This document shows positions 4,026-34,741 of a DNA stretch of 34,741 bases, one piece after another. Within the stretch, counting starts at the first letter, position 1; each line of letters begins with the position of its first letter. The translations under genes were made by a program, and so were the position numbers. The notes under the pieces were generated by a model, which was not told the DNA's origin, made no database searches, and worked only from the letters and a program-made list of their open reading frames with translations. This DNA comes from Flavobacteriaceae bacterium (GTDB taxonomy: Bacteria; Bacteroidota; Bacteroidia; Flavobacteriales; Flavobacteriaceae), in NCBI GenBank assembly GCA_020854235.1, contig JADZFW010000067.1:1-34741 (forward strand), written 5' to 3'.

Positions 4026-4031
4026 TAGCTT

Positions 4032-4087
4032 AAACTTTAAACTTTAAACTTTAAACTTTATAACTTTAAACTTTATAACTTTAAACC
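4032..4087 (+). repeat. AAACTTT heptamer tandem repeat between pyrH and frr
   Basis: The first part holds four perfect tandem AAACTTT units. They continue as alternating AAACTTT and ATAACTTT units for about eight copies in all, filling nearly the whole gap between the pyrH stop and the frr start. The same heptamer recurs upstream of panB (25191-25223). Confidence 0.92.
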
Positions 4088-25190: not shown

Positions 25191-25223
25191 AAACTTTAAA
25201 CTTTAAACCTTAAACTTTAAACT
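25191..25223 (+). repeat. AAACTTT heptamer repeat upstream of panB
   Basis: AAACTTT, AAACTTT, AAACCTT, AAACTTT and a partial fifth unit end 7 bp before the panB ATG. It is the same heptamer as between pyrH and frr and also sits immediately upstream of a start codon. Confidence 0.9.
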
Positions 25224-30917: not shown

Positions 30918-30936
30918 ATTTTGCTATAATTTTAAA

Positions 30937-31200
30937 TAGGTTGACCTATCCTTATGATAGGTAGACCTACGGATTGGATAGGTCGACCTATGGATTTGGT
31001 AGGTTGACCTATCTTATTACTAGGTAGACCTATGGATTTGGTAGGTTGACCTACAGATTTGATAGGTTGACCTTTAGATTTAGTAGGTTGACCTATCCTT
31101 ATGATAGGTAGACCTATGAATTTGGTAGGTTGACCTACGAAAAAGGTAGGTTGACCTCAATATTTACTAGGTCGACTAAATTAAAAGATAGGCGTACGTA
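30937..31200. repeat. 21-bp-period array of 13 near-palindromic TAGGTNGACCTA boxes
   Basis: Thirteen 12-bp boxes begin at 30937, 30958, 30979, 31000, 31021, 31042, 31063, 31084, 31105, 31126, 31147, 31168 and 31189, exactly 21 bp apart with no slippage. Boxes 1-6 and 8-10 read TAGGTNGACCTA with N=T, A or C; boxes 7 and 11 differ in the last base; box 12 is TAGGTCGACTAA and box 13 TAGGCGTACGTA, so the right end decays. The perfect palindrome would be TAGGTCGACCTA (box 3). Spacers of 9 bp vary but often resemble TGGATTTGG; TCCTTATGA occurs twice, 147 bp (seven units) apart, and there creates a 7-bp hairpin. Two helical turns per unit put every box on the same face of the DNA, as at multi-site protein-binding arrays. 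Function unknown. Confidence 0.93.
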
Positions 31201-31466: not shown

Positions 31467-31540
31467 CTCCCCCTCTTGGACTTGAACCAAGGACCCTCTG
31501 ATTAACAGTCAGATGCTCTAACCGACTGAGCTAAGGAGGA
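31467..31540 (-). tRNA. tRNA-Asn (GUU anticodon)
   Basis: The minus strand folds as a 74-nt cloverleaf: acceptor arms TCCTCCT and AGGGGGA (with one G-U), D arm with AGCTCAGTCGGTTAGAGC, anticodon stem TCTGA/TCAGA with loop CTGTTAA (anticodon GTT, Asn), and T arm CTTGG-TTCAAGT-CCAAG. The discriminator is G73 and CCA is not encoded. A strong terminator follows. It lies divergently from lysA and next to the CRISPR-like relic; tRNA genes are frequent integration sites, but I see no att duplication here. Confidence 0.95.
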
Positions 31541-32876: not shown

Positions 32877-33869
32877 ATGAAATTAGCAGTTGTAGGAGCC
32901 ACCGGACTTGTAGGCACAGTTATGTTACAAGTATTAGCTGAAAGAAAATTCCCATTTACCGAATTGTTATTGGTTGCTTCTGCCAAATCTGTTGGGAAGA
33001 AAATGACTTTTCAAGGGAAGGAATATACCATTGTGAGTATGGAGGATGCTGTACAAGCCCAACCGGATATTGCCATTTTTTCGGCTGGTGGAAGCACTTC
33101 ATTGGAATGGGCTCCTAAATTTGCCGAAGTTGGAACAGTAGTTATTGACAATTCATCGGCTTGGCGTATGGATGTTACCAAAAAATTGGTAGTTCCCGAA
33201 ATCAACGCTACCCAAATCACCGCACAGGATAAAATCATTGCCAATCCCAATTGTTCGACCATTCAAATGGTGATGGCATTACATCCTTTGCATCAAAAAT
33301 ACACCATCAAACGCGTGGTAGTTTCAACCTATCAATCGGTTACCGGGACTGGAGTCAAAGCAGTAGAGCAACTTGAAAATGAAAGAAAAGGGATCGAAGG
33401 AGTCAAAGCCTATCCGCATCCTATCGACTTAAACTGTTTTCCTCATGGAGGTAGTTTTGAGGACAACGGTTATACCACCGAAGAGACTAAATTACTCAAT
33501 GAAACCCGAAAAATATTGGGAGCCGATAGTATCCAAGTAACGGCAACTGTCGTGCGAATTCCTACTTATGGCGGACATTCGGAAGCGGTAAATGTCGAAT
33601 TTGAAAACGAATTTGAAATAGCGGATGTCATCACCCTTTTGAAAGAAATGCCGGGTGTAACAGTCCTCGACAATCCGGCTCAAAATGAATATCCTATGCC
33701 CTTGACAGCCAAAGGAAAAGACGAAGTTTTTGTAGGAAGAATCCGTCGAGATTTCTCCCAACCCAAATCTTTGAATCTATGGATTGTTTCAGACAATCTG
33801 AGAAAAGGAGCAGCTACGAATGCGGTGCAGATTGCGGAGTTTTTGGTTAGGGATTTTGGGAGAAAGTAG
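32877..33869 (+). CDS. asd: Aspartate-semialdehyde dehydrogenase
   Basis: Asd reduces beta-aspartyl phosphate to aspartate semialdehyde with NADPH, feeding the lysine/DAP, threonine and methionine branches. The 330 residues have the N-terminal dinucleotide motif VVGATGLVGTVMLQVL, the FSAGGSTS segment, the active-site Cys126 in NPNCSTIQMV, and the catalytic His234 in TYGGHSEAVNVEF. The RKGIEGVKAYPHPIDLNCFPHGG stretch is also typical. It follows lysA at 21 bp and is followed by the inverted octamer repeat at 33882. Confidence 0.97.
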   Translation: MKLAVVGATGLVGTVMLQVLAERKFPFTELLLVASAKSVGKKMTFQGKEYTIVSMEDAVQAQPDIAIFSAGGSTSLEWAPKFAEVGTVVIDNSSAWRMDVTKKLVVPEINATQITAQDKIIANPNCSTIQMVMALHPLHQKYTIKRVVVSTYQSVTGTGVKAVEQLENERKGIEGVKAYPHPIDLNCFPHGGSFEDNGYTTEETKLLNETRKILGADSIQVTATVVRIPTYGGHSEAVNVEFENEFEIADVITLLKEMPGVTVLDNPAQNEYPMPLTAKGKDEVFVGRIRRDFSQPKSLNLWIVSDNLRKGAATNAVQIAEFLVRDFGRK

Positions 33870-33881
33870 TAGTTGTTTGAG

Positions 33882-33945
33882 GAGTTATTAAGTTATTGGG
33901 TTATTGAGTTATTGGTGATTGGGTGATGGTAGTTGAGTAGGATTG
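33882..33945 (-). repeat. Left octamer array flanking the four-helix-bundle gene
   Basis: Four clean units, GAGTTATT, AAGTTATT, GGGTTATT and GAGTTATT (33882-33913), then degenerate TGATT/TGATGG-type units to about 33945. Each is the reverse complement of a unit class in the right-hand array (34592 onward: AATAACTC, AATAACTT, AATAACCC). The 250 bp between this array and the next gene hold only AT-rich DNA and a candidate promoter. Confidence 0.88.
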
Positions 33946-34024
33946 AATAATTGGGATTTAATCGCTTTTGCTGTTGGGATCGAATTTGGTTATAGGGAAA
34001 GATGATATGAGATTTTTTTTTGAA

Positions 34025-34032
34025 TATCTTTG
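34025..34032 (+). promoter_or_regulatory. Candidate -7 box for the four-helix-bundle gene
   Basis: TATCTTTG fits TAnnTTTG, about 130 bp before the ATG. No well-spaced -33 element is visible. Confidence 0.3.
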
Positions 34033-34161
34033 CTATCTTAACTTAAGATGTAAATCATTTGCTATATTTACAACTGAATAATAAGTTGCTTGTAATTATT
34101 TATTTTTTGGAATTTGTTTTAAATACAATTGGTTTTTTGTGAAATCAAATTGAAAATAGCT

Positions 34162-34533
34162 ATGGAAAATTTTAAAACTTTTGAAGATTTAGAATGCTGG
34201 AAAGAGGCAAGGAAACTTCGCATTCATGTAAAAATTAATATACTTTCTAAATTTCCTGAAAATGAAAAGTTTGATCTTACCTTACAACTCAGTAGGTCGT
34301 CTCGATCTATAGGAAATAATATTTCAGAGGGTTTTGGAAGATTTCACTATCAGGAAAATATTCAATTTTGCAGGATAGCCAGAGGGTCATTAACCGAAAC
34401 GCTAGATCATTGTATAATCGCATTTGATGAGTCCTATATTTCACAAGATGAACTACTTGAAGTTCGAAAAATATACAATAAAACACTGTTGCTTTTGAAT
34501 GGTTATATCAAATATCTCAATACTAAAAAGTAA
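34162..34533 (+). CDS. Four-helix-bundle protein (23S rRNA intervening-sequence family)
   Basis: A 123-residue protein from ATG 34162 (a longer frame begins at TTG 34129 and adds 11 unconserved residues). It has the family pattern: MENFKTFEDLECWKEARKLR, then FPENEKFDLTLQLSRSSRSIGNNISEGFGR, then IARGSLTETLDHCIIAFDESYISQDEL, and a final helix ending IKYLNTKK. Relatives include proteins encoded within intervening sequences of 23S rRNA genes and the Avd accessory protein of diversity-generating retroelements; they form four-helix bundles and probably bind nucleic acid. I see no rRNA, reverse transcriptase or variable-repeat pair nearby. The gene is bracketed by inverted arrays of one octamer, which suggests it moves or is copied as a unit. 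Confidence 0.87.
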   Translation: MENFKTFEDLECWKEARKLRIHVKINILSKFPENEKFDLTLQLSRSSRSIGNNISEGFGRFHYQENIQFCRIARGSLTETLDHCIIAFDESYISQDELLEVRKIYNKTLLLLNGYIKYLNTKK

Positions 34534-34591
34534 ATTAATGATTAATTATAGAAAAAACATGAAAAACTGACCAAACAGCATTTGTCTCTAC

Positions 34592-34741
34592 AATAACTCA
34601 ATAAATCAATAACCCAATAACTCAATAACTCAATAACTTAATAACTTAATAACTTAATAACTTAATAACTTAATAACTTAATAACTTAATAACTTAATAA
34701 CTTAATAACTTAATAACTTAATAACTTAATAACTTAATAAC
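34592..34741 (+). repeat. Right octamer array (AATAACYY), continuing past the window
   Basis: Starts AATAACTC, AATAAATC, AATAACCC, AATAACTC, AATAACTC, then about 13.75 perfect AATAACTT units from 34632 to the last base, roughly 19 units visible. The gene-proximal units vary while the distal ones are identical, implying recent expansion at the outer end. The array does not end inside the window. Confidence 0.95.

Follow-up and report, generated by a model that had tools for sequence, protein, structure and literature searches.

Elements of the intervening-sequence (IVS) class are known from 23S rRNA genes, where their complementary ends pair into a stem and the loop is excised by RNase III. 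To our knowledge, no role has been established for the S23/IVP proteins, which figure in the literature chiefly as passengers of rRNA IVSs. The IVS of Coxiella burnetii is described as 428 nt long, with terminal inverted repeats that form a 28-bp stem, and as being excised by RNase III (PMC4990558), and the protein family, PF05635, has been described as resembling Avd of diversity-generating retroelements (2GSC versus 4DWL; PMC10053308). Inverted repeats also flank the genes of RAYT transposases, which have been proposed to spread these REPs (PMC3733652). Stems built from heptad repeats are known from the P6b element of the Nostoc tRNA-Leu intron (Class I, TDNGATT; Class II, NNTGAGT; PMC4476775), and intergenic heptamer arrays, with an origin left unexplained, occur in Xanthomonas (GGGAATC, with about 70 convergent inverted pairs), Nostoc (GGGGAYT) and Beggiatoaceae (TAACTGA) (PMC4692102, PMC4679880). 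No link to PF05635 was found in the accessible parts of this heptamer-array literature. The open-access literature likewise yielded no report joining 'four helix bundle protein' with inverted repeats and, at the level of titles and abstracts on the PF05635 family and its look-alikes, no earlier description of an arm-bounded unit.

The window analysed here, a stretch of 34,741 nt, is the entire contig C67 of a Flavobacteriaceae genome that is 76% complete and comprises 201 contigs. Towards its right end, an asd-like (aspartate-semialdehyde dehydrogenase) ORF, judged by inspection of its translation, occupies positions 32877–33869 on the plus strand, co-directional with the gene that follows. 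The left (5′) arm begins 12 nt past the asd stop codon (33882–33927, plus strand) and consists of an array of the octamer GTTATTNN, with four copies at 33884–33913 and similarity reaching 33927. It is followed by a leader to which no ORF was assigned (33928–34161, plus strand); the resulting spacer of about 235–250 nt between left arm and ATG corrects the preliminary description and is unusually long compared with the arm-to-start distances at most other loci. The plus-strand gene itself runs from the ATG at 34162 to the stop at 34533 and encodes a four-helix-bundle protein (23S rRNA IVP, S23) of 123 aa, which matches PF05635 (23S_rRNA_IVP; E = 5e-29, 101 bits against a cut-off of 33.8) and TIGR02436 (E = 1e-25, 89.8 against a curated cut-off of 24) over its full length, with 2gsc and 2rld as PDB homologues. 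The right (3′) arm (34592–34741, minus strand) is an inverted array of the left-arm octamers, AATAACNN, present in 18.8 copies by TRF and reaching the contig end; the right end of the element is therefore open, because the assembly breaks within the array. In the relative G001, the asd homologue (contig C57) had no PF05635 gene in the ∼300 nt read downstream.

The preliminary description had proposed that octamer arrays stand inverted around the four-helix gene, and this bracket is real: aligning the left flank with the reverse-complemented right flank gave a best local score of 32, compared with a mean of 9.1 and a maximum of 13 among 817 window pairs of the same geometry. A chance inverted match was ruled out by this null and by the permuted locus sets given below. 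The element is not inserted in a 16S or 23S rRNA gene; the copy sits after asd, Rfam gave no match at the element and the window contains no rRNA. The PF05635 gene is its sole ORF, and no HuH/Y1 (IS200-like) transposase is encoded. Like the 23S rRNA IVSs with an S23p ORF (Coxiella burnetii, Leptospira; 0.4–0.5 kb), the element carries an S23/IVP ORF inside complementary ends able to form a closing stem. With ORF, size and closing arms as in IVSs, the stand-alone units have IVS anatomy; unlike rRNA IVSs, they lie between protein genes, and their excision is predicted by analogy. Because the defining rRNA location is absent, we file them as IVS-type rather than as rRNA IVSs. On balance, we think it probable that a compact IVS-class element of about 0.4–0.7 kb is present once in the window, made up of an arm, an S23/IVP four-helix-bundle ORF and an inverted arm, and situated between protein genes.

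Other repeats were also seen in the window. At 30936–31192, units of about 21 nt based on the palindrome TAGGTTGACCTA / TAGGTAGACCTA are repeated in tandem between genes and form the strongest hairpin among the window's spacers, and a tRNA gene lies nearby on the minus strand (31467–31540). Solo heptamer arrays of TTAAACT / AAACTTT occupy spacers at 4030–4086 and 25191–25223, and their word family is that of the arms of another element in the same genome, on contig C104.

All six PF05635 genes of the source genome have inverted short arrays on both flanks, and the word differs by locus: GTTATTNN on C67 and C2, TAAAGTT on C104, GGGTGAT on C18, TAGATTT on C101 and TAGAAAT on C115. The expectation that four-helix genes would be flanked by the octamer thus held for the bracket and failed for the word. 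The idea that the octamer marks the gene also had to be given up, as the genome, whose arrays were sampled through searches and stretches, carries octamer arrays at no fewer than a dozen other sites, mostly in a single orientation and without the PF05635 gene. As far as the word is concerned, this is the outcome that the preliminary description had named as refuting. In a strict pattern scan, arrays in opposite orientation occurred at two loci, the window and C2, both with a PF05635 gene. It is therefore the bracket, and not the octamer word, that is specific to the gene. The earlier observation is correct and undersells itself: the general rule, inverted heptad or octad arms with a word that changes from locus to locus, is not visible from one window. 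At L040, L044 and L046, and at L049 and window position 34580, solo octamer arrays adjoin REP-like palindromes such as CCCGATAGCTATCGGG or the half palindrome TTGTCTCTAC.

To compare loci, each left flank was scored against the reverse-complemented right flank of the same locus and against those of mismatched pairs. The collection comprised 43, then 102 loci from Flavobacteriaceae and 80 further loci from public genomes, 182 PF05635 loci in total, covering Flavobacteriaceae, other Bacteroidota and 30 loci from other phyla (including Planctomycetes, Acidobacteria, Verrucomicrobia, Clostridia, Chloroflexi, Proteobacteria and Ignavibacteria). At the 102 Flavobacteriaceae loci, matched flanks scored 14.63 versus 9.17 for mismatched ones (largest of 10,000 permuted means, 10.05), with only about half of the loci passing the 95% cut-off of mismatched pairs; sliding-window and shifted-neighbour controls gave 9.11 and 8.78. 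The excess was also present at 50 wider Bacteroidota loci (15.08 versus 8.91) and at the 30 loci from other phyla (16.02 versus 8.68), reached by 0 of 10,000 permutations in both cases. For 15 loci on cyanobacterial plasmids, the means were 18.47 and 8.95, and with the Azospirillum plasmid added, none of 10,000 permutations reached the value for all 16 plasmid loci. At three of the cyanobacterial plasmid loci (L321, L323 and L330), an element with heptad arms lies within a CRISPR-Cas operon, the insertion points being between cas6 and cas4 and between cas10/cmr2 and cmr3.

The arms are degenerate arrays of 7-mers, sometimes 8-mers, with a locus-specific word. Identity within arms was 0.62 at a lag of 7 and 0.61 at a lag of 14, compared with 0.26–0.37 at other lags, and the dominant lag was 7 at 75 of 101 loci and 8 at 16. 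In Flavobacteriaceae, G far outnumbers C in the 5′ arm (412 versus 82). The P6b stem of Nostoc is similar in that its 7-nt repeats are degenerate and can switch from one class to the other, and some arms contain similar words, for example TATTGAGT; it differs in lying within a group I intron and containing no four-helix ORF.

Elements measured 395–699 nt (median 478 nt) and fit tightly between cistrons: the median gap to the outer end of the arm was 5 nt after the upstream stop codon and 7 nt before the downstream start codon. Both neighbours were co-directional with the PF05635 gene in 153 of 173 cases; a few cyanobacterial copies are antisense to their neighbours. Such inserts of ∼480 nt in the operons of many phyla suggest a widespread, largely overlooked type of inserted element. 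The preliminary description had also offered an RNA stem closing around the gene. That the arms can close is borne out by prediction, since they pair in the MFE structure at 89 of 101 loci (13 with a shuffled arm); a wobble signature at the RNA level, which was tested, is absent, G-U-compatible mismatches between arms showing no excess (75 versus 75). There is thus no sign of RNA pairing keeping the arms alike.

Comparison of homologous sites, at which host gene names are readings of translations, revealed occupied and empty pairs within the genus, as anticipated for a mobile unit. The element between nuoI and nuoJ is present in G002, and G000 and G003 have a 1-nt spacer there; between nuoJ and nuoK, it is present in G003 and the spacer is short in G000 and G002. 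Occupied and empty states were also found at etfB/etfA (occupied in G000, empty in G002), sdhA/sdhB (G002; empty in G001), EamA/tsaB (G000; empty in G002 and G003) and YciI/mmcQ (G002; empty in G000). Between atpA and atpG, the element of G003 includes the gene, and in its place G000 has a hairpin of inverted TAGAAAT-type arrays that lacks it. Furthermore, the elements at EamA/tsaB in G000 (L032) and YciI/mmcQ in G002 (L058) are close relatives at unrelated loci, with arms retained and with homology that starts and stops around them. Their arm-to-ATG leader of about 140 nt is highly similar, although the dS of the genes is near 1, and may carry a functional signal. No target-site duplication of the kind left by classical DNA transposons or MITEs was evident at the occupied/empty junctions read by eye, where repeat-rich ends hinder the comparison. 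These comparisons of sites support mobility of the element. The proposed non-autonomous mobile unit is thus backed in its inverted-repeat-like ends and its occupied and empty sites; the attribute 'non-autonomous' is conjectural, since no enzyme that mobilises the unit was identified.

Movement is rare, as vertical inheritance has kept many copies in place: of the 102 loci, 23 lie at a common site (fadN/fadA by its translations), and 21 of these belong to one protein clade. Within this fadN/fadA-type site, matched arms scored 12.87 and mismatched ones 10.53 (4 of 20,000 permutations), and at the second-largest site 14.56 and 11.09 (34 of 20,000), indicating that left and right arms tend to change together; the excess was absent at two smaller sites. 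Across sites, arm word and protein relatedness were weakly associated, mainly through close pairs (Mantel r 0.13, 18 of 5000). With a dN/dS of 0.05–0.16 in pairs with measurable dS, the protein is under purifying selection, that is, selection to work.

How far the arrays extend beyond the genes bears on the alternatives to an IVS-class element. Array density was 1.94/kb beside the gene versus 0.15/kb elsewhere in the same loci, and gene-less arrays or hairpins near an element matched its resident word better than the words of other loci (11.7 versus 5.8; 21 of 40 at p < 0.05). The shared words are what would be expected of a REPtron-like DNA element, in which heptad hairpins would be recognised as DNA by the four-helix protein, possibly aided by a nuclease or recombinase of the host, and both gene-bearing units and gene-less hairpins would be spread. 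The lack of a G-U bias and the joint change of both arms within the fadN/fadA-type site point the same way. Even so, we regard such an element as rather unlikely. We know of no catalytic transposase signature in PF05635, the near-absolute co-direction with the host operon would be more natural for an RNA-linked element, and solo arrays also occur at a distance from all PF05635 genes, or in a genome that lacks the family. In seven Flavobacteriaceae genomes tested, none of the TAACTGA arrays lay close to a PF05635 gene, and such arrays are present in one genome that has no PF05635 gene at all; a link between these arrays and PF05635 was therefore rejected, and not every heptamer array can be attributed to the elements described here. 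The reversed control word AGTCAAT was itself arrayed in G074, G112, G165, G295 and others, which marks another heptamer family in those genomes. The elements do resemble REPtrons and REPINs (PMC3733652) in combining inverted repeats around a gene with scattered gene-less hairpins of the same words; unlike these, they carry no HuH/Y1 transposase, their arms are degenerate heptad arrays, and they do not share the GTAG-tagged palindromes.

It is very improbable that the arrays are passive, that is, 7-nt repeats formed by polymerase slippage in spacers, with the inverted match a by-product of local sequence habits around an ordinary chromosomal gene. Heptamer and octamer arrays are indeed common on their own, and among the longer simple repeats of many genomes, heptamers are known to be the most abundant (PMC4679880, PMC4692102). 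However, the Flavobacteriaceae flanks compared in direct orientation stayed near background (10.43 versus 9.19) and those compared in inverted orientation rose well above it, a contrast that largely refutes passive arrays; that the flanks are inverted rather than direct also disfavours an insertion that split a pre-existing array. All 46 inverted array pairs with loops of 330–700 nt contain a PF05635 ORF, which describes loci picked for having this gene, where other genes are unbracketed, and is not a genome-wide rate. Gene-less inverted pairs (10 cases) had loops of up to about 95 nt, resembling the inverted GGGAATC pairs of Xanthomonas, and four pairs with loops above 700 nt had mixed content. 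Occupied and empty sites, and homology bounded by the arms, are further points against passive arrays. Finally, a non-mobile regulatory cassette, in which the arms would serve the host operon in processing or attenuation and the four-helix protein would regulate that operon, could account for the purifying selection on the protein, for its long vertical persistence at some sites and for a position exactly between stop and start codons, yet is scarcely credible for sites that are functionally unrelated and polymorphic within a genus, and for an element type that is also found in 23S rRNA.

The last point rests on L334, on a plasmid of Azospirillum lipoferum. The Rfam LSU match spans this locus, which places it within a 23S rRNA gene and makes it a true IVS; its arm heptads TCAGAGG ACGGATG ACAGAGG ACGGAGG ACAGAAA face an inverted copy (score 23.5). 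It is a single example of a heptad-armed rRNA IVS rather than the outcome of a survey, and the accessible part of the Coxiella report (PMC4990558) does not mention a heptad arm structure.

For the IVS-class element that we favour, the following course can be envisaged. The element would be transcribed along with its host operon, and pairing of the arms in the transcript is predicted to enclose the ORF in a loop, which could limit damage to the flanking cistrons; by analogy with rRNA, RNase III may cut this loop. The four-helix protein, with a putative Avd-like pentamer fold, would bind the nucleic acid of its own element and might aid its maintenance or spread via host or other enzymes. The arms probably lengthen through 7-nt slippage, and strand-switch copying between them would keep them matched; since wobble pairs are not enriched, arm matching may come from such copying at the DNA level. 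More tentatively, PF05635 elements could form a pan-bacterial mobile class, of which rRNA IVSs are a special case and whose heptad-repeat hairpins would be maintained and spread by the four-helix protein through a catalytic activity that has so far gone unrecognised; we consider this possible rather than probable. If true, it would provide an origin for many unexplained bacterial heptamer arrays.

The S23/IVP gene, formerly known mainly from inserts that split rRNA, is now found in operon spacers across many phyla, which explains why 'four helix bundle protein' genes are scattered within core operons. The elements are also a possible source of the heptamer arrays that have been reported as being of unknown origin. 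With free-standing copies in arm-bounded units, the boundaries, site polymorphism and function of the element become testable in tractable strains.
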